DNA from: a virus
DNA length: 20,809 nt
Strand: one strand, 5' to 3'
Virus record (IMG/VR): IMGVR_UViG_3300047548_000572
Location: 1 to 20,809 of that record
Part shown: positions 1 through 18,850 of the stretch, in pieces
Numbering within the stretch: position 1 is the first letter of the stretch
Layout: every line of letters starts with the position of its first letter
Program-made: the position numbers and the translations under genes
Notes under the pieces: model-generated
Told to the model about the DNA's origin: nothing
Databases searched by the model: none
What the model saw: only the letters and a program-made list of their open reading frames with translations

Positions 1-78
1 GTTAGGGCCTACCCGGCAGGGGCTGGCGCAGGGGGAGATAGTGCCTACCGGCGCGGGAGGGCGGGTGAGGCTAGTTAG
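1..78 (+). CDS. possible C-terminal end of an upstream gene (partial)
   Basis: Frame 1 is open from the window edge to a TAG at 76-78 and would encode a Gly/Ala/Arg-rich tail ending RRGRAGEAS. A second frame is also open, from base 2 to a TAA at 89-91, so the correct frame cannot be decided from so short a stretch. The G-rich sequence could equally be non-coding. No function can be assigned; sequence upstream of the window would settle it. Confidence 0.25.
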   Translation, partial: VRAYPAGAGAGGDSAYRRGRAGEAS

Positions 79-101
79 TGCCGCTAGTTAACTTCTAACT
101 A
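72..101. promoter_or_regulatory. nested dyad upstream of first gene, operator-like
   Basis: TAGTTAG (72-78) and CTAACTA (95-101) are perfect inverted repeats. Between them lies the 8-bp palindrome AGTTAACT (86-93). The dyad sits directly upstream of a TATACT hexamer (108-113), where an operator or activator site would be expected. That it binds a protein is inference; only the symmetry is seen. Confidence 0.4.
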
Positions 102-113
102 TTAGGGTATACT
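85..113 (+). promoter_or_regulatory. weak sigma70-like promoter for first gene
   Basis: TATACT at 108-113 is a good -10 match (5 of 6). The -35 at the right distance, TAGTTA at 85-90 (17-bp spacer), matches only 3 of 6 positions. A start near base 120 would give a leader of about 30 nt before the ATG at 150. The poor -35 overlapping a dyad would suit an activator- or repressor-controlled promoter. Tentative. Confidence 0.3.
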
Positions 114-149
114 TATGTTACGCCCTGCGGTGGGGCGATGGAGCCTATT

Positions 150-857
150 ATGAGTACCCAGTTTCCCGGCAACTTCAAGCCTGTGGCTAGCCCTAAGAGC
201 ATCGACGAGATCATGGACGTGTGGACCGACGAGGACGACACCCCTATCAGGGTCCCTGCATCGGCCCCTGCACAGCCGCAGCGCATCGCGCTGCCTGATG
301 TAGTCCTAACCCCCTACGACCCGTCTGCGCGCCCCGCAGCGGTCGCAAAACGGGCCTCTGCGCCCGTAGCTACCCCCCGCCAAGAAGATACGAGTGTGCG
401 CGCCCGCAAGCAGTGGCCGTTCAAGGATATCGGGTCAGGCGGGTCGCTCATGGTCTACGAGGAGGACTACGGGCCAGCAGCGTTGATCTGTCAGCGAGCG
501 CACATCTACGGGTATAACACCGGTAAGCAGTTCAGGACTCGGGTCGGCGTGGACAGCGCAGGGCGCAAGTATGTGCATGTCATGCGTGTGGGCGTGACCC
601 GCAATGACGAGACGGGGGAGCCGGTCAAGGTAGATCGCAGGTCGTTACGTCGTGTTAAGTATGCATATGAGGACCTATCGGTTGGGGAGTACGTAGAGTA
701 CCGCGACGGGGCAGAGGCGCAACGGGCGGTGTCCAGCATCGCTAACCGGCAGAGGAAGCTCGGGATGCGGTTCGCGGTCAAGCGAGTTAGGGTCCCGGTC
801 AAAGTCGGCGGAGCTACGGTGGACGGGATCATCACCCAGATACACCGCGTAGAGTAA
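150..857 (+). CDS. phage protein with two related C-terminal modules, function unknown
   Basis: 235 aa from ATG 150, which has GGAG at 140-143 six bases upstream; the in-frame ATG at 138 lies next to that site and is a poorer start. Residues 1-85 are Pro/Ala-rich and probably disordered. Residues 88-145 begin WPFKDIGSGGS and residues 171-218 begin YAYEDLSVGEY, then run into an Ala/Arg helix and a GMRFAVKRV strand. Both fit the pattern aromatic-Pro/Ala-aromatic-(K/E)-D-(I/L)-x-x-G followed by a basic strand, so the C-terminal half looks like a degenerate duplication. I recall similar short domains in many phage hypothetical proteins, where the Ala/Arg helix is followed by KF-x-x-R. No catalytic motif is visible and I cannot assign a function. 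It is followed by the long gene-free region, so it may close the upstream transcription unit. Confidence 0.85.
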   Translation: MSTQFPGNFKPVASPKSIDEIMDVWTDEDDTPIRVPASAPAQPQRIALPDVVLTPYDPSARPAAVAKRASAPVATPRQEDTSVRARKQWPFKDIGSGGSLMVYEEDYGPAALICQRAHIYGYNTGKQFRTRVGVDSAGRKYVHVMRVGVTRNDETGEPVKVDRRSLRRVKYAYEDLSVGEYVEYRDGAEAQRAVSSIANRQRKLGMRFAVKRVRVPVKVGGATVDGIITQIHRVE

Positions 858-873
858 GTGCCCCTATAAGTAC

Positions 874-924
874 GTACCCTATCACACGTACTAATAAAAA
901 ACTAATTAAGTGTGATACGGGTAC
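874..924. repeat. long inverted repeat after first gene
   Basis: GTACCCTATCACAC (874-887) is repeated in inverted form as GTGTGATACGGGTAC (910-924): a 14-bp stem with one bulged C (918) and a 22-nt A/T-rich loop. It starts 16 bp after the stop codon at 857. No T-run follows, so it is not a standard intrinsic terminator. It could be a factor-dependent terminator, an RNA 3'-end stabiliser, a binding site for a dimeric protein or an origin element. Only the symmetry is directly seen. Confidence 0.6.
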
Positions 925-956
925 TTCTAGCTCTGCACGGGGCGCCCAGAGGGAGA

Positions 957-1018
957 AACGTGAAGAAGAAGAAGAATAATAATATATATTTTATATAGAT
1001 TACATATATAACAGGTCT
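957..1018. repeat. A/T-rich simple-sequence tract
   Basis: A GAA-triplet run (about 960-975) passes into AAT triplets and then an almost pure A/T stretch to about 1012, in sharp contrast to the GC-rich genes on both sides. Such easily melted DNA next to an inverted repeat is compatible with a replication origin or a promoter region, but no iterons or DnaA boxes were recognised. Confidence 0.45.
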
Positions 1019-1470
1019 TAAACTGAGCGCCTGCCTTTTTGCCCTCGCTTGCTCGCCCTTTTGTGGGTTTTTAGGCGCGTACGCACCCCTTCAGGCTTTC
1101 CCTTATTTCCCCGCTCGCCTTTTTTACATGTTATATACGCAGCCTACATAGCCTATATACTTAACTCCCTCCACTCACGGGCTACAACCCGGCACTATTA
1201 AAGTTTGTAACTAGAGCATAGCTATTAAAACTAGCGTAGTTTAGGCCCTATTCCGGCCCGTATATATACTATATCCGAGCTCTTTTATGACTTAACTACG
1301 TACTACTAGCCATACTACCCGTTCCGGTTTCTAATCCTTCCGTTTAATAGTTATCCGCCTACTTCTAAGCACTACAACCTACACCTATGTTTATATGCTT
1401 TATAGCTTACCCCTTCTACTTAACCTCCCAAGTTAATAGTCTAGTCATCGGAAACACCCCGACTACGATT
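1019..1470. other. gene-free, G-depleted pyrimidine-rich region
   Basis: There is no open frame of useful length on either strand. The + strand is strongly pyrimidine-biased (16 purines among 60 bases at 1081-1140 and 20 among 60 at 1321-1380), rich in CTA/TAC words and dense in stops in every frame. The heptamer ACTTAAC occurs at 1159-1165, 1290-1296 and 1418-1424, spaced about 130 bp; the last copy also forms a TTAAC/GTTAA dyad with 1432-1436. TATATAC-type words recur at 1153-1161 and 1261-1272. GCGCCT (1027-1032) can pair with AGGCGC (1073-1078) across a T-rich loop. This may be an origin or a regulatory region; nothing decisive is seen. Confidence 0.5.
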
Positions 1471-1479
1471 GCCTACTAC

Positions 1480-1508
1480 TTGACATGGGAACTACTATGG
1501 GGTAAAAT
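1480..1508 (+). promoter_or_regulatory. strong sigma70-type promoter
   Basis: The -35 hexamer TTGACA (1480-1485) is a perfect consensus. It is followed by a 17-bp spacer and the -10 hexamer TAAAAT (1503-1508, 5 of 6). Transcription would start near 1514-1516, immediately before the first of a long series of hairpins. It is the best host-type promoter in the window and should drive the candidate structured RNA and possibly the gene at 1946. Confidence 0.8.
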
Positions 1509-1514
1509 AATGAA

Positions 1515-1926
1515 CATGGGGTCGAGAAAGCCACTCGACAAGTCTGGCCAGTAGCAACTAGGTTGCGTGGTTAGACTATAAACTCCCTTGCTCTTTACAA
1601 CTTATCAACCAGCGTTGGCTACAGTTAGTACCTAACCCCTTGCGTCGTGAGACGTGCGGGTGGTGCTAGCCATGCCTATGTCCGGCTCGCTGCCGGTAAG
1701 CTGCGGCTCCCGTGGTAGCCGTTATCTACTACGTTGACTGCACGTTGTAAGTGCAGGTGCAAGATTGCGTTCGCTCTGGGCGACCGACCTTACCCGCCAG
1801 CACCATAGCTAGGTGCCACCTGCGGGGCGCGATGACTGCACGCCATACCTCTCGGCAAGAACAGACAAGAGAGGTCAGCCTATAGGGCATGGGTATCCCG
1901 TGCCTTATGTGCTGTCATGTGACAGC
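1515..1926 (+). ncRNA. candidate large structured RNA or structured 5' leader
   Basis: About 410 nt between a consensus promoter and the gene at 1946, with no credible reading frame and closely packed hairpins: GTCGAG/CTCGAC (1521-1539); AGTCT/AGACT enclosing CCA/TGG and GCAAC/GTTGC (1541-1577); CAAC/GTTG (1606-1617); GTTAG/CTAAC (1624-1636); CGTC-GTGA-GACG with a GNRA-type loop (1643-1654); GCTA-g-CCATG paired with CGTGGTAGC (1665-1674 with 1711-1719) enclosing CCGGC/GCCGG (1682-1696) and AGC/GCT (1699-1708); CTGCAC/GTGCAG (1738-1756); AGGT/ACCT (1811-1821); ACCTCTC/GAGAGGT (1847-1875); GGCATGGG/CCCGTGCC (1886-1904); GCTGTC/GACAGC (1911-1926). I recognise no tRNA, tmRNA, RNase P or known riboswitch core. 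Large phage RNAs of unknown role (GOLLD, ROOL) are a precedent for the size class only; no homology to them is claimed. The 3' end is uncertain because no T-run follows the last hairpin. Confidence 0.55.
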
Positions 1927-1945
1927 TATTAACCACACACATACC

Positions 1946-2704
1946 ATGCTCAAGCTCGTCAACTACAACCCCGACACCACCGCCCATGCCCTCCTGTCCC
2001 GTCATCTGGAGCGGCACCAGTACACGAAGGGCGCCTACAAGGGCGATGCCCCTGCCGACTCGTCACGCCGTGGCAAGACTCACTTCCGCGTGGTGCGCCG
2101 AGGTGAGGCCCTTGCGGTGCTGTTCCACCGCACCGAGATCCTGATCGCCTACCCTGATGGCACCGTGCAGCTCTACACGAACGGCTATCACATGAACCCA
2201 ACCACGCGACAGGCCATGTCGCATGCCCTCACCAGATTCACGCCGTGGCGTGGTTGGCTCACGACCCTCGCGGTCAACCGCTACAAGAACGAGGCGATCT
2301 ATTTCATGGCCGCCCACCCAGACGCCCCGTCCAAGACCATTGCGTTCTGTGAGGGGCTGACCATCAGCCCCGAGGGCGAGGTCGACAACTACGGTGCGTG
2401 CCTGTACCGCTACGAGTCCGACCGTGCTGCCCGTAAGGAGTGGCTCAACTCCGAGACCGTGCAGGAGTTCCGCTCGCTGCTGCCTATCCTGTGGTCGGGT
2501 GCCGAGGACCGTCGTCGTGCCGGCACACCTCTACAGCGCAAGGTCTACAACATGTCGAGCTGGCGCCGTGAGGTGAAGTTCGACCGTGGCCAGTGGCCTG
2601 CGTTCGTCGAGCGTGCGACCTACCAATACGCCACGTGGGAGGCGTTCTGGACTGTCTTCCGCACTGAGCACACCCGCGACATGAACGTGAAGGTGGAGAT
2701 CTAA
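1946..2704 (+). CDS. conserved phage protein of unknown function
   Basis: 252 aa from ATG 1946. The frame is open back to an ATG at 1889, but that ATG lies inside a strong hairpin and the extra 19 residues (His/Cys/Thr-rich) do not look like protein, so the start MLKLVNYNPD is preferred. No Shine-Dalgarno sequence is visible (upstream is ACCACACACATACC), which is unusual here. The protein is soluble, with an N-terminal helix, then beta-rich sequence around IAYPDGTVQLYTNGY and PTTRQAM; I recall this 'PDG-x-x-x-L-x-x-x-G-(Y/W)-x-x-x-x-TT' pattern in phage hypothetical proteins of unknown role. The C-terminal half is Trp/Arg-rich. It directly follows the structured RNA candidate and probably shares its promoter. 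No enzyme motif was recognised. Confidence 0.85.
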   Translation: MLKLVNYNPDTTAHALLSRHLERHQYTKGAYKGDAPADSSRRGKTHFRVVRRGEALAVLFHRTEILIAYPDGTVQLYTNGYHMNPTTRQAMSHALTRFTPWRGWLTTLAVNRYKNEAIYFMAAHPDAPSKTIAFCEGLTISPEGEVDNYGACLYRYESDRAARKEWLNSETVQEFRSLLPILWSGAEDRRRAGTPLQRKVYNMSSWRREVKFDRGQWPAFVERATYQYATWEAFWTVFRTEHTRDMNVKVEI

Positions 2705-2727
2705 ATGGCGGCGGGCATCCCCAGTAG

Positions 2728-2756
2728 GTGATATACTTACAGTCTCTCTGTAAAAT
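2728..2756 (+). promoter_or_regulatory. promoter with overlapping dyad in front of first HNH gene
   Basis: GTGATA (2728-2733, 4 of 6 to -35), a 17-bp spacer and TAAAAT (2751-2756, 5 of 6 to -10) lie between the stop at 2704 and the ATG at 2771. A perfect dyad TTACAG-N5-CTGTAA (2737-2753) fills the spacer and overlaps the -10, as an operator would. Transcription would start near 2763, only a few bases before the start codon. An own promoter fits a freestanding mobile gene. Confidence 0.55.
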
Positions 2757-2770
2757 ACTAAGGATTTTGT

Positions 2771-3358
2771 ATGCCCGCTTTCATTGATAGAACCGGAACG
2801 CGATATGGACGCTGGGTGGCTACCCAATATGAGGGGGGTAGCAGATGGCGCTGTATATGCGACTGCGGCACTGAGCGGGTAGTGATCGGGAAGGATTTGA
2901 CTACGGGCAAGTCCGTCTCGTGCGGTTGCTACCGAGATGAAGTACTGCGTGATCATGTCAAGACGCACGGGAAAAGTGAGACCCGCGTGTACGGCATATG
3001 GCTGCACATGCGCGGGCGATGTTTAGTTCCAACTAACCACCGCTATCCGCTGTACGGCGGGCGCGGCATAACAATCTGCGAGCGCTGGATGACGTTCCAG
3101 AATTTCTACGAAGACATGGGCGACCCCCCGCCTGGTATGTCTTTGGACAGGATAGACAACAGCCGTGGGTATAGCCCTGACAACTGCCGATGGGCTACGC
3201 AAAGGCAGCAGGTCCACAACTCTCGTAGCACAAAACTAACCGATGCTGATGTTGCAGCTATACGCTTAGACACACGCCCGCTAAAGGTTATCGCAACTGA
3301 ATACGGCGTGGGCCATACGTATATATGCAACATACGAAAAGGTAAACTCAGAAACTAA
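2771..3358 (+). CDS. HNH endonuclease, probable freestanding homing enzyme
   Basis: 195 aa; AAGGA sits seven bases before ATG 2771. Residues 26-53 carry a zinc-binding pattern (C28, C30, C32 and C51-G-C53). The HNH-type core is LDRID-N (125-130) followed by YSPDNCRW (134-141), preceded by YGGRGITICERW (95-106). This arrangement is common in phage HNH proteins. Residues 154-193 look like a helix-turn-helix for DNA recognition. The expected role is to nick or cut DNA lacking the gene and so promote its own spread. It has its own promoter-like sequence, and its codon use (AGA, ATA, TTA, AAA) differs from the GC-rich genes around it, which fits transfer. No interrupted host gene or intron was recognised, so it is freestanding. 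It ends 9 bp before the MoxR-type gene. Confidence 0.85.
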   Translation: MPAFIDRTGTRYGRWVATQYEGGSRWRCICDCGTERVVIGKDLTTGKSVSCGCYRDEVLRDHVKTHGKSETRVYGIWLHMRGRCLVPTNHRYPLYGGRGITICERWMTFQNFYEDMGDPPPGMSLDRIDNSRGYSPDNCRWATQRQQVHNSRSTKLTDADVAAIRLDTRPLKVIATEYGVGHTYICNIRKGKLRN

Positions 3359-3367
3359 GGACTCATC

Positions 3368-4417
3368 ATGCAAATCAATTTTCAACAAGCAGTCAACCTC
3401 GTCAAGACTTGCGGGCACAATGTAACTTTCCTGTTTCAAGGTAGCCCCGGGCAGGCTAAAAGTTCTATCCTGTCCGCACTCGCATCGCATATGCCTGACT
3501 ACCTACCATGCTACATTGACATGGCAAACATCGACCTTGGTGATTGCGCAATGCCAGTAGTTGATCGCGATCGCATGGTTACCAACTATGCACCTAACGC
3601 GCGCTTCGGTATCTACCCCGGGCAGACTCGGCCTGTCATCATCATGCTCGATGAACTCGGTAAAGCGGCGCGTCCGATCATGAACCTGATGCTCCCCCTG
3701 ATTCTTGAGCGCCGCTTGGGCGATGTGGCCCTGCCCCCGGGCTCGATCGTATTCGCTACTACTAACCTAGCAACAGATGGTGTCGGTGATAATATCCCAA
3801 GCCACGCAATGAACCGCATGACTGTGCTCGACTATGCCAACATCGACTGCGACTCGTGGCTCGTCTGGGCCGCAGCTAACGACGTCGCGCCCGAGGTGAT
3901 GGCGTTCGCCAAGCAGTATCCGCAGTGCTTCGACCGCTACGACCAAGCCGACCACGACAACGGCTACATCTTCAACCCCCTGCGTGGTCAGACCAAGGCG
4001 TTCACCAGCCCCCGCTCGCTGGCCAAGGCGTCACACCTGATCGCTGCCCGTGACGTGCTCGGTGAGGCCCTGCTGCCTGCACTGACCGGCACGATCGGTG
4101 AGTCCGCTGCCCGCGACCTCGACGCCATGGTGCGGCTCGGCGACAGCATCCCGTCGTTCGAGTCCATCATCCGCAGCCCCGAGACAGCCAAGCTGCCCGA
4201 GGGTGTAGGTGCATCGTTCCTGATGGCCTACATGTGCGCTGGCCGCGTCAAGGAAGACACGATGGACGCCGTCATGACCTACGTCGGCAGGTGGACCAGC
4301 TTCGAGTCCGTCGCGCTGTTCATCTCCACCATCGCAGCCAACGCCACCAAGGTGCGCTTCGCTATCAAGAACAGGGCGTTCACCCAGCAGGCAGCCAAGC
4401 TGGGCAAGTATTTCTAA
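3368..4417 (+). CDS. MoxR-type AAA+ ATPase
   Basis: 349 aa, ATG 3368 with AAGGA at 3356-3360. Walker A is GSPGQAKSS (25-33, K31), Walker B is VIIMLDE (90-96) and a sensor-1-like FATTN follows at about residues 129-133. No membrane segment. MoxR-type ATPases act as chaperone-like remodelling machines with VWA-domain partners, and a VWA protein follows at 5996, with a probable DUF3150 protein at 9373; these three families are often neighbours on phages and plasmids. The substrate is unknown. Codon use is mosaic: 26 of the first 50 codons end in G/C against 44 of 50 from residue 159, a sharp change near 3840. The low-GC3 part lies next to the HNH gene, which suggests a recombination or gene-conversion tract. 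Family assignment is firm; physiological role is not. Confidence 0.9.
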   Translation: MQINFQQAVNLVKTCGHNVTFLFQGSPGQAKSSILSALASHMPDYLPCYIDMANIDLGDCAMPVVDRDRMVTNYAPNARFGIYPGQTRPVIIMLDELGKAARPIMNLMLPLILERRLGDVALPPGSIVFATTNLATDGVGDNIPSHAMNRMTVLDYANIDCDSWLVWAAANDVAPEVMAFAKQYPQCFDRYDQADHDNGYIFNPLRGQTKAFTSPRSLAKASHLIAARDVLGEALLPALTGTIGESAARDLDAMVRLGDSIPSFESIIRSPETAKLPEGVGASFLMAYMCAGRVKEDTMDAVMTYVGRWTSFESVALFISTIAANATKVRFAIKNRAFTQQAAKLGKYF

Positions 4418-4431
4418 CCAAGGAGTCAATC

Positions 4432-4701
4432 ATGCAATTCGAGATCCACACCCACACTATCGCCGACCACTATCTGCCGGCGCTCATCAACGGCGACTAC
4501 ACAGGCCTCGACGATGGCGAGGAGGCATACCTGTTGAGCTGGCTCGACTGGGCTTGCGACGACTGGGAGGACAGCGACGGCAACCGCTGGGCGTTCGCCC
4601 ACTACGGCAACTACGAACCCAACGACTTTGCCGAGTGCGAGGTCACATGCCTGCAGGCCATGACCGCCAAGCTCGACATCGTATTCACCCTGAAGAAGTA
4701 A
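4432..4701 (+). CDS. small acidic phage protein, unknown function
   Basis: 89 aa from ATG 4432 with a consensus AAGGAG at 4420-4425. The frame is open further upstream inside the MoxR-type gene, but the good ribosome site and the change to protein-like sequence fix this start. The protein is acidic and Trp-rich (LSWLDWACDDWEDSDGNRW), with an N-terminal ALINGDYTGLDD motif I vaguely associate with small plasmid/phage proteins. There are no catalytic motifs. It lies 14 bp after the ATPase and leads the run of small genes between the ATPase and its probable VWA partner, so it may be an accessory of that module. Confidence 0.8.
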   Translation: MQFEIHTHTIADHYLPALINGDYTGLDDGEEAYLLSWLDWACDDWEDSDGNRWAFAHYGNYEPNDFAECEVTCLQAMTAKLDIVFTLKK

Positions 4702-4710
4702 GGAGTAACC

Positions 4711-4917
4711 ATGAACACCAACGAACTGCGCAGGAAGATGGACGAGTACCTAGACACGCTCGACGATCTCAACGAGGAGGAATGGCGCGGAGCCCAATAC
4801 GACCGGCACTTCGAGGCGCTCAGCGCCTTTGTCGAGTGGCTCGACAAGCCAGCCCGTGAGAAAGAAGCCCGCCGCCAACTGTATGAACAACTGAAGAAGG
4901 AGTTCGGTGATGCCTAA
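4711..4917 (+). CDS. small helical phage protein, unknown function
   Basis: 68 aa, ATG 4711 preceded by AAGGAG. Almost entirely charged, predicted helical sequence (repeated E, K, R, D with Leu spacing), probably a helical hairpin or coiled coil. It overlaps the next gene by 8 bp, which implies translational coupling. No family is recognised. It belongs to the ATPase operon by position only. Confidence 0.75.
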   Translation: MNTNELRRKMDEYLDTLDDLNEEEWRGAQYDRHFEALSAFVEWLDKPAREKEARRQLYEQLKKEFGDA

Positions 4918-5137
4918 GAAGCCCATCCCTAAAGTCAGCAAGCACGCTGCCTGCGTGCTAGTGCAGCGCTCCGATGGCGTCGATGTGATCGACCCCATGA
5001 CGGGCAGGTGGTCGCACTTCCCGACCATGCGCCAAGCCCGCTGGTCAGCCACGGTCTACACCCGCCTGTCGTGTGCGTTCGGTCGAGCCGTTGCCGACGA
5101 CGCCACTATCCACAACACCCTCATCACTACGAAGTAA
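4910..5137 (+). CDS. small phage protein, unknown function
   Basis: 75 aa from ATG 4910. A GTG three bases earlier is in frame, but the AAGGAG at 4897-4902 is better spaced for the ATG. The product starts MPKKPIPKVSKHAACVLVQR, then a short beta-like VIDPMTGRWSHFPTM segment and a helix with AFGRAVADD. It is basic at its N-terminus. I recognise no domain. It overlaps the previous gene by 8 bp and lies in the run of small genes between the ATPase and VWA genes. Confidence 0.7.
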   Translation: MPKKPIPKVSKHAACVLVQRSDGVDVIDPMTGRWSHFPTMRQARWSATVYTRLSCAFGRAVADDATIHNTLITTK

Positions 5138-5541: not shown

Positions 5542-5999
5542 CTATCGACATCAAGAAGCTGCGTGCTGACCACGTGGCCAAGCTGCAAGAGGGGTTCACC
5601 AAAGCCCTCGATGAGTTCAACCCGGATCAGGCCCTTGAGACCTTGACTGCACGCCTGAGCGACGCCCAGCAGCAGGCTGTGTGGAATGCGTTGGGGTTAC
5701 AGGATAGGTGGGGCAGGTGGGAGGTCAACACCGTGTCTGGGAAGGCATCCCCTATCGGGCAGTGGATCACCGCCGAGATCCAAGACAAGCTGCGTGCCTT
5801 CATGCAGGAGCTAGTCAAGGATGAGATCGACAACATCAAGGCGGGCATGCGTACCAAGATCAAGACCCTCATCATCAAGGAGATCAAGGCGCAAGCCGAG
5901 TGGCAACTAGAGAAGCTGGTAGAGAGCACGGTCGAGGATGTAGCCAAGAAATTGATAGACGAAGTACGTGAAGAGATTGAACAGGAGTTAGGACTATGA
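5538..5999 (+). CDS. helical phage protein, unknown function
   Basis: 153 aa. The start overlaps the previous stop as ATGA and the stop overlaps the next start as ATGA, so it is tightly coupled to the VWA gene. From about residue 80 to the end it is a long Lys/Glu-rich amphipathic helix (DEIDNIKAGMRTKIKTLIIK and onward) ending in Glu-rich sequence, suggestive of a coiled coil. The N-terminal half is also helical. No enzyme motif is visible. Its place next to the metallopeptidase/VWA gene suggests an adaptor or partner of that protein, which is inference. Confidence 0.8.
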   Translation: MTIDIKKLRADHVAKLQEGFTKALDEFNPDQALETLTARLSDAQQQAVWNALGLQDRWGRWEVNTVSGKASPIGQWITAEIQDKLRAFMQELVKDEIDNIKAGMRTKIKTLIIKEIKAQAEWQLEKLVESTVEDVAKKLIDEVREEIEQELGL

Positions 6000-7162
6000 A
6001 CGCACAAGACAGGGTCAAGAAGGCCCACATCAGCATCATGCGACACAAGGTGTTCTGCGCCTTCAGCGGCGTGCTGGCGTGTGGCAAGGTGGAGGTCAAC
6101 GACACCACACCCACGGCATGCACCAACGGCTGGGACGTCAGCTACGGCACCCAGTTCGTCGACTCGCTCGACGACGCCGAGCTGCGCTTCGTTGTGCTGC
6201 ACGAGACTATCCACAAGTCCTATCAGCACCTCAACGTGTGGCGTAACCTGTGGGATGAGAACAAGCAGCTTGCCAACATTGCCTGCGACCACTTCGTCAA
6301 CTTGTCCCTCGTCGACACCGACAACGGCGAGGGGTTCCTCAAGATGCCCAAGGTCGGTATCCAACCCGAGCCGCAGTTCCGTGGCTGGTCGGTCAAGCAG
6401 ATCTATGACCACCTCAAGGACGAGCAAGACTCGGACGACGAGTCAGGTCAGGGCCAAGGTGACGGTCTCGACGACCACGACTTCGAGGGCGCCGGCCAGC
6501 AGTCTGCTGCCGAGCAGGCCAAGCAAGCCGACGAGATACAGCGTGCGCTGCGCCAAGGCGAGCAGGTCGCCCGTGCCCGTGCCCGTGGCGCCGGCAAGGG
6601 TGGCAGCTCCGCACTCATCGGCGATCTGCTCAAGCCGCAGGTCAACTGGCGCGAGCAACTGCGCGACTTCGTGCAGGCCACGTGCTCTGGCCGTGACGAG
6701 TCTACGTGGGCTAGACCTAACCGACGCTTCCTCGCCGACGACATCTACCTCCCAAGTATGGAGAGCACCACGATTGGCGAGCTCATCGTAGGCATCGACA
6801 CCAGCGGGTCCATCGGAGGTACGGTCATTACGCGCTTCGCGTCCGAGCTCGCAGCCATCGTCGAGCAGGTGCGCCCCGAGCGCGTGCGTGTCGTGTACTG
6901 GGACTGGGAGGTTCAGGGCGAGCAGGTGTTCGAGGATGGCCAGTTCGCCGTGACACAGCTCAAGGTCAAGGGCGGCGGTGGCACCGACGGCTCCGTGCTG
7001 TTCGACTACGTGCGCTCCAAGGGCTACAAGCCCGCTGCCATTGTGCAGTTCACCGATGGGCTCGTGGGTTCGTTCGGGCAGTCCGATGTACCCGTGCTGT
7101 GGGCCATCACCGAGCGCAGCATCCATGCGCCGTACGGTGTAACAGTGCACATCACTGACTAA
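5996..7162 (+). CDS. putative metallopeptidase with VWA-like domain (DUF2201 type)
   Basis: 388 aa. The N-terminal domain has an HExxH zinc-peptidase motif (HETIH, 69-73, with H78 close by). The middle (about 140-200) is an Asp/Gln/Ala-rich low-complexity linker. The C-terminal VWA-like domain has MIDAS-type elements: D268-T-S-G-S272, a GGGGTDGS turn (T330, D331) and FTDG (352-355). This domain order is that of the DUF2201 family (putative metallopeptidase plus VWA-like). Such proteins usually work with a MoxR-type AAA+ ATPase, here the gene at 3368. The metal-binding residues look complete. Whether it cuts a substrate, and which, is unknown. It is followed by a two-hairpin leader for the next gene. 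Confidence 0.9.
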   Translation: MNAQDRVKKAHISIMRHKVFCAFSGVLACGKVEVNDTTPTACTNGWDVSYGTQFVDSLDDAELRFVVLHETIHKSYQHLNVWRNLWDENKQLANIACDHFVNLSLVDTDNGEGFLKMPKVGIQPEPQFRGWSVKQIYDHLKDEQDSDDESGQGQGDGLDDHDFEGAGQQSAAEQAKQADEIQRALRQGEQVARARARGAGKGGSSALIGDLLKPQVNWREQLRDFVQATCSGRDESTWARPNRRFLADDIYLPSMESTTIGELIVGIDTSGSIGGTVITRFASELAAIVEQVRPERVRVVYWDWEVQGEQVFEDGQFAVTQLKVKGGGGTDGSVLFDYVRSKGYKPAAIVQFTDGLVGSFGQSDVPVLWAITERSIHAPYGVTVHITD

Positions 7163-8003: not shown

Positions 8004-8459
8004 ATGCATACAGAATTATCACAGTTACCCAACGCACAATGCATAAGTTGGGTACTGCGTTCAGTAAGAGAACATGGGGATAGATGGTACGCTGCTTGGG
8101 ACGCTACTCGTGCCGCTGTTTGGGACGCTACTCGTGCCGCTGTTTGGGACGCTACTCGGGACGCTGCTTGGGACGCTGCTCGGGACGCTGCTCGGGACGC
8201 TACTCGTGCCGCTGTTTGGGACGCTACTCGGGACGCTGCTTGGGACGCTGCTCGGGACGCTGCTCGGGACGCTACTCGTGCCGCTGCTTGGTACGCTACT
8301 CGGGACGCTACTCGGGACGCATTGATCGCATTGGTCGCATGGGACCACGCTGCGGACTACTTAGAGCTACCACCGGACGCAATAAAGCTATTGGCCGCCA
8401 GCGGGGACTTCATAGCCATCCTTCTATACCCCGCAGTAGTCGTCAAGTCACAGGAGTAA
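8004..8459 (+). CDS. Ala/Trp/Asp/Arg four-residue repeat protein
   Basis: 151 aa, ATG 8004 with AAGGAA at 7993-7998. Residues 1-31 are a unique N-terminus. Residues 32-107 are 19 consecutive four-residue units of the types WDAT, RDAA, RAAV and WDAA. The C-terminus (LIALVAWDHAADYLELPPDA onward) is unique, partly hydrophobic and resembles the ends of other phage proteins with such repeats. Each unit is 12 nt, so unit gain or loss keeps the frame. The repeats should form a long Ala-rich helix with alternating D and R charges and Trp every 4 or 8 residues. No function is known to me. Other frames across the repeat are also open, an effect of the stop-free 12-nt unit; this frame has the ribosome site and sensible termini. 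Confidence 0.8.
   Translation: MHTELSQLPNAQCISWVLRSVREHGDRWYAAWDATRAAVWDATRAAVWDATRDAAWDAARDAARDATRAAVWDATRDAAWDAARDAARDATRAAAWYATRDATRDALIALVAWDHAADYLELPPDAIKLLAASGDFIAILLYPAVVVKSQE
8097..8324. repeat. 12-nt tandem repeat array, 19 units, with a 72-nt duplication
   Basis: Units follow YGGGACGCTRCT or CGTGCCGCTGYT from 8097. Units 4-9 (8133-8204) and 10-15 (8205-8276) are identical copies of a 72-nt block, so the array has grown by duplication recently enough to lack differences. The only clear variants are at the end (TGGTACGCTACT, CGGGACGCATTG). Slippage or unequal recombination would change protein length in steps of four residues. Confidence 0.95.
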
Positions 8460-8728: not shown

Positions 8729-8778
8729 CTATGCTGTAGAATAGTTCGCACCGGGTGGACGCGCCAACGCCCACCCGG
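8727..8778 (+). promoter_or_regulatory. dyad and stem-loop in leader of second HNH gene
   Basis: AACTAT (8727-8732) and ATAGTT (8741-8746) form a dyad enclosing a -10-like TAGAAT (8737-8742). An 8-bp perfect hairpin follows, CCGGGTGG/CCACCCGG (8751-8758 with 8771-8778, 12-nt loop), then AAAGGAA and the ATG at 8815. A TTGACG at 8709-8714 is badly spaced for a -35, so the promoter is uncertain. No T-run follows the hairpin, so it is not a clear terminator. The layout resembles the first HNH gene, which also has a dyad over its -10. Confidence 0.45.
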
Positions 8779-8814
8779 CACTTCACAGAACTTCGTTTGA
8801 AAGGAACGACAGCC

Positions 8815-9297
8815 ATGCGCGAACTCGATCTTACCACCCTGCTCGAATACTTGAGCTACGACCCGGAGACGGGTGTGTTTATGTGGCTCAAGCAAGCCGC
8901 TCAGTGCGTAAAGGTAGGCACTGAGCCCGGTTGGACATCATCAAAGGGTTATAAGCAAGTCCATATCTTAGGTAGAACCTACCCAGCGCATAGGCTAGCT
9001 TGGTTTTATGTGTATGGAGTATGGCCTACATATACAATAGACCATATCAACGGCATAAAAGACGACAATAGAATATCCAATCTACGTGACGTACCACAAG
9101 CGATAAACAACCAAAACCATCGCAAGGCTAGGCAGAGCAGTCCGTACATCGGTGTATATAAAGCTAGGGACAAGTGGAGAGCTACCATCCGTCTTAACGG
9201 TAAAGCGATCCACATCGGGTACTTTCAATACCCAGAAGATGCCCATGCAGCCTACGTAGAGGCTAAGCGCAAACTGCACGCAGGCTGCACGATCTAA
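8815..9297 (+). CDS. HNH-AP2 endonuclease, probable freestanding homing enzyme
   Basis: 160 aa from ATG 8815 (AAAGGAA upstream); an in-frame ATG at 8755 lies in the leader hairpin and is rejected. The HNH core (about 50-101) shows AHRLAW (58-63), IDHINGIKDDN (75-85) and ISNLR (87-91). Residues 109-157 are an AP2/ERF-type DNA-binding domain (YIGVYKARDKWRATI, then GYFQYPEDAHAAYVEA). This fusion is typical of phage and intron homing endonucleases. It should cut a specific site in alleles lacking it. Codon use is AT-rich (ATA, AGA, TTA) unlike its neighbours, a sign of transfer. The flanking genes appear intact, so it sits in an intergenic gap. It is the second of three HNH genes here. Confidence 0.9.
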   Translation: MRELDLTTLLEYLSYDPETGVFMWLKQAAQCVKVGTEPGWTSSKGYKQVHILGRTYPAHRLAWFYVYGVWPTYTIDHINGIKDDNRISNLRDVPQAINNQNHRKARQSSPYIGVYKARDKWRATIRLNGKAIHIGYFQYPEDAHAAYVEAKRKLHAGCTI

Positions 9298-16874: not shown

Positions 16875-17001
16875 GGACGAAGAGTTCAAGCTCAAGGACC
16901 GGCTACGACACCGCAAGTCGTACGCCAAGAAAACACAACTGCCATGGAAGGATGGGGAAGATGCCAAGGATATGCGTACTGGACCTAGAGACGCGATATG
17001 A
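16813..17001 (+). CDS. probable small basic protein overlapping VRR-NUC and polymerase genes
   Basis: 62 aa from ATG 16813 with AAGGA at 16798-16802. The product is Lys/Asp-rich and helical (DKPDPITNFLNAHKKPLTKD, then KLKDRLRHRKSYAKK) and looks like a genuine soluble protein. It fills the gap between the VRR-NUC stop (16874) and the polymerase start (16961) and overlaps both. Overlaps of 62 and 41 bp are longer than others here, so it could still be chance. No family recognised. Confidence 0.6.
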   Translation: MSDKPDPITNFLNAHKKPLTKDEEFKLKDRLRHRKSYAKKTQLPWKDGEDAKDMRTGPRDAI

Positions 17002-18850
17002 CCGCGAGTATTCGCTATCGAAAATGACTACCGAGGCGTACTGTCGTGACCCTCGGTTTGAGACCATCGGTGTAGCGATCAAGTTCGATGACGACAAGAC
17101 ATTCTGGTTGGAGCAGCCAGACGTTGAGCAATACATCAGACAAGTGGATTGGAGTGACACGATCATTGTGTGCCAGAACACGGCATTCGACGGGTTTATC
17201 CTACGCCACTACTTTCAGGTACAACCACTCGCGTGGCTGGACATCATGGGTATGTCCCGTGCCTTGTTCCCGCACGAGAAGTCGCACAGCCTCAAGGCTC
17301 AGGCCGAGCGTGCCGGCGTCGGTGTCAAGGGCGACGAGGTGGTCAACGCGATGGGCAAGCGGTACACGGACTTCACCCCCGCAGAGCTAGTGAGATATGG
17401 CGAGTATTGCGTAAACGACGTAGAACTTACCTACGCGCTGTTCCAGCGTTATATGGGCATGGGCTTCCCCAAGAAGGAGCTCAAGCTCATCGACCTCACC
17501 CTGCGCATGTTCATCGAGCCCGTGCTGGAGCTGGATCCGGGGATGCTGCAGCAGCATCTGGTCGAGGTACGGTCACGCAAACAAACGCTGTTGGAGCAAG
17601 TGCGAGACAACATGCTGGCCGGCGCCGACGTGGACTACGTGCATACAGTCTTCACCGAAGGCACCGACGGTATCAAGAAGCTGCTGATGTCGAACGACAA
17701 GTTCGCCGCCTCCCTGCGCAGCCTAGGGGTCGAGCCACCAACCAAGGTCAGCCCCACCACCGGCAGGGAGACCTATGCCTTCGCTAAGACCGACGAGGCG
17801 TTCAAGGAGTTGGAGGAGCACCCCGACGAGCGCGTGCAGACGCTGGTCGCCGCTCGACTAGGCAACAAGACGACGCTGGAGGAGACCCGCACGGAGCGGT
17901 TCATCGACATGGCCCGCCGAGGCGCGTTCCCCGTGCCGCTGCGCTACTATGGGGCGCACTCGGGTCGCTGGTCGGGTCAGGACAAGATCAACCTGCAGAA
18001 CCTACCGTCGCGCGGCCCGAACGCAGGCCAGATCAAGAAGGCCATCCTCGCACCGGAAGGACACGTCATCATCGACTGCGACTCGGCACAGATCGAAGCG
18101 CGGACACTGGCGTGGCTGGCCGGGCAGACGGAGTTGGTCGAGACCTTCCGCAACAGGGGCGACGTATACAAGCTCATGGCGTCCAAGATCTACAACGTGC
18201 CTATCGACCAAGTAGACAAGACCCAGCGTCAGGTTGGAAAAACCGTGGTGCTCGGTGCAGGCTACGGCGTCGGCCATCAGAAGCTCCAGCTATTCCTGAA
18301 GAACCAAGCCGGTGTTGTGGTGACTATCGAGGAGGCCAAGCGGATTATTGATACCTATCGGCAGGCATCCGACAAGATCGTGGACTTCTGGTCCCGCGCC
18401 GGCATGGCGCTGCGATACCTCCTACAAGGGCAGTCGTTCGAGATCGACGCCGTGGGCATCTGCACCGCCGTGCCCGGCAAGGGGATCACCCTGCCGAACG
18501 GGCTGCACATCCAGTACCCGGGCCTGCGCAACATCACCAACGAGAGCGGCAAGTCCGAGATGGTGTACTACTCCAAGGGACTGCCCGTGCGGATATACGG
18601 CGGCAAGGTGGTCGAGAATCTTTGCCAGTCAGTCGCCCGCCAGATCGTAGCCGAGCAGATGCTGCGGGTGTCCAAGCGGTACCGGGTGGTGCTGACCGTC
18701 CATGATGCCGTAGCTATCGTGGCCCCCGAGGCAGAGGCCGCAGAGGCTCAAGCCTATCTCGAAGAGTGCATGAGCTGGAACCCGGCGTGGGCAAGGGGCC
18801 TCCCCCTCGCCTGTGAGTCGGGAGTAGGCAAGAGTTACGGCGACTGCTAA
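16961..18850 (+). CDS. polA-like: family A DNA polymerase with 3'-5' exonuclease
   Basis: 629 aa from ATG 16961 (AAGGA at 16948-16952, eight bases away); the ATG at 16952 is possible but its ribosome site is too close. The proofreading domain is intact: D8-L-E10 (Exo I), CQNTAFDGF (Exo II) and YCVNDVELTY (Exo III). Polymerase motif A is D372-C-D-S-A-Q-I-E379, motif B is RQVGKTVVLGAGYG and motif C is VLTVH581-D582-A583. The usual Glu after HD in bacterial Pol I is Ala here; I believe HD-(A/S) variants occur in phage members. No 5'-3' exonuclease domain. It should be the phage replicative polymerase. The primase is not in the window. Confidence 0.95.
   Translation: MPRICVLDLETRYDREYSLSKMTTEAYCRDPRFETIGVAIKFDDDKTFWLEQPDVEQYIRQVDWSDTIIVCQNTAFDGFILRHYFQVQPLAWLDIMGMSRALFPHEKSHSLKAQAERAGVGVKGDEVVNAMGKRYTDFTPAELVRYGEYCVNDVELTYALFQRYMGMGFPKKELKLIDLTLRMFIEPVLELDPGMLQQHLVEVRSRKQTLLEQVRDNMLAGADVDYVHTVFTEGTDGIKKLLMSNDKFAASLRSLGVEPPTKVSPTTGRETYAFAKTDEAFKELEEHPDERVQTLVAARLGNKTTLEETRTERFIDMARRGAFPVPLRYYGAHSGRWSGQDKINLQNLPSRGPNAGQIKKAILAPEGHVIIDCDSAQIEARTLAWLAGQTELVETFRNRGDVYKLMASKIYNVPIDQVDKTQRQVGKTVVLGAGYGVGHQKLQLFLKNQAGVVVTIEEAKRIIDTYRQASDKIVDFWSRAGMALRYLLQGQSFEIDAVGICTAVPGKGITLPNGLHIQYPGLRNITNESGKSEMVYYSKGLPVRIYGGKVVENLCQSVARQIVAEQMLRVSKRYRVVLTVHDAVAIVAPEAEAAEAQAYLEECMSWNPAWARGLPLACESGVGKSYGDC

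Follow-up and report, generated by a model that had tools for sequence, protein, structure and literature searches.

What does the genome make from the ~1.1 kb of gene-free DNA, running from the end of an open reading frame at 857 to a gene at 1946, that stands at the head of its plus-strand gene block? The window, i.e., the whole stretch analysed here, is a linear IMG/VR virus record of 20.8 kb whose main genes lie on the plus strand (Table 1), and which also encodes a PD-(D/E)XK nuclease and a helicase. A first-pass annotation, made from the letters alone, had placed an undescribed structured phage RNA (ornate, or a long leader) in this gap; the absence of a matching Rfam family, the folding, and the covariation described below support that proposal.

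The first gene behind the RNA region encodes a 252-residue protein for which a protein search in phages returned no match. Its homologs stand directly behind the RNA in four relatives (L009, L012, L074, and L078) and further downstream in two others (L004 and L006). Two HNH endonuclease genes are present in the window (2771-3358 and 8755-9297), the former between the 252-residue gene and the AAA ATPase gene, where L078 has a short stretch only. Positions 8004-8459 encode a repeat protein of (WDATRxA)-type units, with short tandem repeats at ~8085-8320, and a stretch similar to this repeat region is found at 8479-8781 of L078. Upstream of the promoter lies AT-rich noncoding DNA, in the window (960-1480) as well as in L004 (2620-3170) and L006 (1740-2260); in L004 and L006 it is rich in GTTACA repeats and also contains a GAGAGA-TATA stretch, so that it resembles a replication origin.

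Promoter, fold and parts of the window RNA

The promoter reported in the first-pass annotation (TTGACA-17-TAAAAT) is present, matches the consensus at 11 of 12 positions, and ranks at the top of four promoter-like sites in positions 1-5000, where the chance expectation for looser sites (9 of 12) is 3.0 +/- 1.7. The promoter in the window is backed by relatives, where a near-consensus promoter occupies the corresponding position. The reported lack of a credible reading frame also holds, as 1515-1888 contains no protein-like frame; an extension of the downstream frame starts at 1889, the start that aligns with L078 is 1946, and the Shine-Dalgarno site said to be missing there is indeed absent. 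We rejected a conserved small open reading frame within the RNA, because the peptide matches between the window and L078, which occur in several frames and on both strands, are forced by a conserved 40-nt block of DNA. No terminator was found between the RNA and the gene at 1946.

The RNA (1515-1945) folds with -175.3 kcal/mol, better than its dinucleotide shuffles (z of -3.7 to -3.9), which was one of the checks proposed for it. This z is the lowest among 53 stretches of the genome tested; five other 400-nt segments also fall below -3, and fold energy alone is therefore weak evidence. Many hairpins are indeed predicted, about ten where at least eleven had been counted. The compound stem at 1541-1577 (probability 0.98) and the GNRA-type loop, a GUGA tetraloop capping the stem 1641-1656, are confirmed, whereas the long-range stem proposed between 1665-1674 and 1711-1719 is unsupported: 1662-1670 pairs with 1624-1632, and 1711-1718 pairs with 1726-1733. 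At the place of the 5' hairpin (1521-1539) relatives have a covarying hairpin, in which six of eight consensus pairs are compensated, and the 3' terminal hairpin (1881-1909) resembles the terminal hairpin of the main family of relatives. Keeping the boxA single-stranded costs the fold just 1.7 kcal/mol, so this element can be free.

Table 1. Features of the RNA locus and of selected genes in the window, with equivalents in relatives
Feature	Position	Strand	Remarks
Sigma70-type promoter TTGACA-17-TAAAAT	1480-1508	+	Expected transcription start ~1515; near-consensus counterpart in ~50 relatives
Structured untranslated leader / ornate RNA, whole element (~430 nt)	1515-1945	+	Fold z, no ORF, structure kept with L078, no terminator before gene
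5' hairpin GUCGAG/CUCGAC	1521-1539	+	Probability 1.0
Compound hairpin just 5' of boxA	1541-1577	+	boxB position of rrn leaders; probability 0.98
rrn-type boxA TGCTCTTTACAAC	1589-1601	+	10/11 to GYTCTTTAANA
Long compound hairpin, GUGA tetraloop tip (1641-1656)	1612-1681	+	Equivalent to L078 4499-4559
Hairpin CCGGC/GCCGG	1682-1696	+	Equivalent to L078 4565-4578, GUGCC/GGCAC
40-nt block with hairpin CGUGGUAG/CUACUACG (1711-1733)	1699-1738	+	92.5% identity to L078 4580-4619
Hairpin CUGCAC/GUGCAG	1738-1756	+	Equivalent to L078 4619-4636, CGACCA/UGGUCG; both bases differ in 4/6 pairs
Hairpin of two tiers (5 bp + 5 bp) with a 7-nt loop	1793-1826	+	Equivalent to L078 4673-4706, same geometry
Hairpin ACCUCUC/GAGAGGU	1847-1875	+	Probability 0.98
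3' terminal hairpin UAUAGGGCAUGGG/CCCGUGCCUUAUG	1881-1909	+	84% over 32 nt with L012
Last hairpin ahead of gene, GCUGUC/GACAGC	1911-1926	+	
First gene behind the RNA, 252 aa, unassigned function	1946-2704	+	No Shine-Dalgarno site
MoxR-like AAA ATPase	3368-4417	+	
DUF2201 VWA/metallopeptidase-like protein	5996-7162	+	
Family A DNA polymerase	16952-18850	+	

Covariation in the closest relative and in the main family

The AAA protein of L078 is the closest to that of the window (70%). L078 is laid out in the same way and is the single close relative found for the window variant of the RNA, with ~60% identity around the 40-nt block. The same helices recur in register in both, i.e., the GNRA-tipped hairpin and those at 1682-1696, 1738-1756, and 1793-1826; in the last of these, ten pairs include four double changes and no single one. 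Taken together, 26.5 pairs are shared and 17.7 of them are changed on both sides. In the corresponding null, in which alignment columns were shuffled so that identity stays, the maxima were 19.5 and 10.3, and none of 400 shuffles reached the observed values. This two-sequence comparison offers direct evidence that the RNA structure of the window itself is under selection. Over the final 100 nt ahead of the gene no base-by-base match was obtained between the two, no equivalent of the hairpin at 1847-1875 was established, and a search for further copies of the window variant by exact pattern returned L078 only. L105 was rejected as a copy, since the 18-mer it shares lies inside a seemingly coding gene and was taken as chance.

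Relatives were gathered through the AAA ATPase, giving 80 IMG/VR loci, many of them on 60-68 kb contigs of uncultured phages. About 50 have a near-consensus promoter, a boxA, an ornate RNA of 400-700 nt with few or no substantial open reading frames, and then early genes; the window shows this layout, with the AAA ATPase among the early genes downstream. The aligned cores of this main family share four helices with consistent compensation. RNAalifold on the MAFFT alignment found that in 17 of 28 pairs both bases vary while pairing is retained. For the 19-pair named structure in a plain MAFFT alignment of 12 sequences, 15 pairs have double changes and 91.7% of cells are paired, a count that no shuffle matched, and slid controls stay at ~40%. 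When 49 sequences were aligned to the model, which leans that alignment towards the structure, 18 of 19 pairs were compensated, the doubly changed cells numbered 190 as compared with 60 for shuffles, and slid controls scored about fivefold or more below. Under a home-made, R-scape-style, tree-aware null, whose E-values are rough, pairs from the helices P1, P2, and P4 head the list of column pairs (E of 0 to 0.07, several at 0-0.02), together with a pair in P5 (E of 0) and a pair outside the helices, in the loop of P4 (E of 0.02), that is probably an alignment artefact. The m2/m3 long-range pairing of the main family (E of 0.39) is only suggestive, and no partner for it was found in the window. 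Covariation in homologs had been named in the first-pass annotation as a check on the RNA, and compensated pairs are present both in the main family and between the window and L078.

We note that the internal loop of P5 (e.g., ~3520-3550 of L036) swaps G.A for A.G across relatives (20 to 11, E of 0), which suggests, from the alignment, a noncanonical motif.

Two covariance models were used with shortened calibration, so that their E-values are rough: R1, for the main-family core, and R2, built from 49 diverse members. R1 finds one copy each in 11 of 15 large contigs, and no R1 core in the other large contigs, L071, L075, L078, and L085. With filters off, the P1-P2-P4 core scores at background in the window and L078 with both models. 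The main-family model was therefore rejected as an account of the window core, the window RNA is not assigned to the main family, and knowledge of the main family transfers to the window by position and layout only. The central domain of the window RNA is a divergent or replaced version, common to L078 only.

boxA and the proposed synthesis of the RNA

The window boxA, GCTCTTTACAA, matches at 10 of 11 positions, i.e., with one mismatch, the published gamma-proteobacterial consensus GYTCTTTAANA (PMC5725501). Among the 52 RNA-bearing loci the match is perfect in 34 and within one mismatch in 48, at 40-150 nt behind the promoter; in a random control, 56 of 5000 stretches of 110 nt match that well. 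Counted from the first base of the promoter, the boxA usually lies 86-95 nt downstream in the relatives and ~110 nt downstream in the window, a distance longer than most. Three RNA-bearing loci (L009, L012, and L074) have a degenerate boxA with three mismatches. In the loci where the model finds no RNA, no near-consensus boxA stands behind any promoter-like site (0 of 10), and in RNA-less L071, L090, and L104, whose DNA was read, promoters run straight into genes. The boxA thus goes with the RNA and not with the operon.

The rrn leader is ordered boxB, boxA, boxC, and its boxA is described as necessary and sufficient for recruiting factors (PMC10250234). Both the window (1541-1577) and L078 (4441-4467) place a hairpin, of differing sequence, in the boxB position just upstream of boxA. 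Of the features found, boxA, which was absent from the earlier description, best explains how the window RNA is made: its linkage to the RNA points to the rrn logic, in which boxA keeps Rho from interrupting the production of a lengthy untranslated RNA.

Host RNA polymerase would start at ~1515 from the strong promoter and produce ~430 nt of untranslated, folded RNA, from which two hairpins and the boxA would emerge first, in the order of an rrn leader. The boxA, assuming that it suits the Nus factors of the host, would then load NusB-S10 and the Nus complex and so spare the polymerase from termination by Rho in the untranslated stretch. The ornate domain that follows boxA would be the actual product; transcription would continue from it into the early genes, and it may be released by cleavage. 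That NusB-S10 is recruited and Rho evaded is put forward here by analogy with established Nus biology. On balance we think it likely that the locus encodes an untranslated ornate RNA at the head of the early operon, made under rrn-style, Rho-resistant transcription; sequence comparison shows the promoter, the fixed position of boxA, the selected RNA structure, its single copy, its independence of the next gene, and its linkage to boxA, and from there we infer the transcription, the Nus binding, and any processing. More tentatively, and with somewhat less than even confidence, we propose that these ornate noncoding RNAs form a new class that plays a part of its own in infection and borrows the antitermination of host rRNA, so that a long untranslated transcript evades Rho. 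In the lineage of the window, the ornate domain behind the common boxA leader would have been exchanged or reshaped, giving a second fold.

If this is true, rrn-style antitermination extends to phage noncoding RNA, and mutation of boxA together with inhibition of Rho becomes a testable handle on an ornate RNA. The compact family, absent from Rfam, has unusually strong covariation support, and a boxA whose presence tracks the RNA is a clue to how an ornate RNA is made. The covariance models and the ~50 genomes can be used for finding a cultured host system.

Known RNAs and competing explanations

The first-pass annotation recognised none of the common RNA classes, and this was borne out. At gathering thresholds Rfam (GOLLD, ROOL, OLE, and group I/II introns included) gave no match in the window, L004, or L006, and up to an E-value of 10, in 900-2000 of the window and in L055, its matches were all at chance level. 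The window has no tRNA or tmRNA, GenBank phage DNA searched with the window region and the L004 RNA gave no match, and no description of such an RNA was found in the open-access papers searched.

Like GOLLD and ROOL, the window RNA is a large ornate phage RNA; unlike them, it is smaller, sits in an early leader, carries a boxA, matches no Rfam family, and has no tRNA nearby. GOLLD and ROOL are often, but not strictly, near tRNA genes. Neither of these two has a known function (PMC12286853). With rrn leaders the window RNA shares a strong promoter, a hairpin followed by boxA, and a long untranslated structured RNA (PMC10250234), whereas its product is not rRNA, its ornate domain is phage-specific, and it runs into protein genes. 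With lambda nut it shares a boxA and a stem-loop, both close to the 5' end of an early phage transcript. In lambda nut, protein N binds a boxB that comes after boxA, whereas the hairpins of the window precede boxA, as in rrn. Compared with HK022 put, the window RNA bears a boxA and is presumably several times larger. The put RNA, likewise a structured RNA in a phage early transcript, is thought to act without a phage protein and is described as acting alone (PMC9378689). Its hallmark is to bind RNA polymerase and modify it independently of host factors. As a kind, the new RNA is between rrn-type leaders and GOLLD/ROOL, with features of both.

The main rival to a Rho-protected ornate product is operon-wide processive antitermination, in which boxA and the folded RNA would convert the polymerase across an early operon of at least 18 kb, as in rrn or HK022 put, and the RNA would have no other job. 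The RNA stands first in a long early region that runs in one direction, with its main genes on one strand; this position, the independence of the RNA from the first gene, the lack of a terminator between RNA and genes, and the rrn type of the boxA all agree with such a leader. We nevertheless regard it as rather unlikely, since relatives that have the same early genes and lack the RNA also lack the boxA, so that the early operon can be transcribed without either, and a conserved domain of 300 nt goes far beyond the known needs of boxA antitermination, for which boxA by itself is described as necessary and sufficient (PMC10250234). Another proposal, that the RNA is a decoy whose boxA titrates host NusB-S10 and thereby lowers host rRNA synthesis, draws on the strong promoter and the near-consensus boxA at the start of the early transcript; it leaves the large conserved domain unexplained, would demand very high abundance with one boxA per transcript, and strikes us as very improbable.

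Control of the 252-residue gene itself by a very long structured leader had been offered in the first-pass annotation as one option; a regulator specific to this gene could be a riboswitch, a thermometer, or an autoregulated leader. The end of the RNA 20 nt before a start codon that has no Shine-Dalgarno site, and the presence of the same gene directly behind the RNA in the four relatives named above, speak for such a 5' UTR regulator. However, the genes that come first after the RNA represent 33 unrelated families across the 52 main-family loci, being unrelated in most relatives, so the RNA is not a regulator of one particular gene, and the option becomes improbable. The RNA could instead be linked to replication, by serving an origin in the AT-rich, repeat-bearing DNA beside the promoter as its transcript or primer. 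In favour of this, AT-rich DNA with iteron-like GTTACA repeats precedes the promoter in L004 and L006, and the window is AT-rich there too; yet many relatives have the RNA but none of this DNA, as the end of a coding gene lies no more than ~20 nt from their promoter, and transcription runs away from the AT-rich DNA, which makes this very improbable. A role of the ornate RNA that is independent of the neighbouring gene, either in trans or for the whole operon, fits best.

A pattern scan of genome contigs gave 20 matches, of which the covariance model confirms one alone: main-family RNA on the minus strand of L114 (1611-1796, 69 bits). This contig, 4.4 kb long and assigned to a Rhodobacteraceae MAG by binning, is possibly of phage origin and a hint to a host. 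Before the same early genes, RNA-less L068, L071, L075, and L104 have two strong promoter-like sites 350-480 nt apart.

In rrn-type leaders boxC, UCUGUGUGGG, lies 3' of boxA. Near-palindromes (AAGTTCTAACCTTAGAACTT, AAGTTATAAGGTTATAACTT, CATCTAATATTAGATG, and CCAACTAATATTAGTTGG) occur ~30-40 nt past boxA and ahead of genes in L004, L006, L012, L013, L034, L043, L055, L071, L076, and others, and the window has one copy of a counterpart, GTTAGTACCTAAC, at 1624-1636. Their sequence is common to the copies within one genome and different between genomes, as might be expected of sites for a diversifying regulator.
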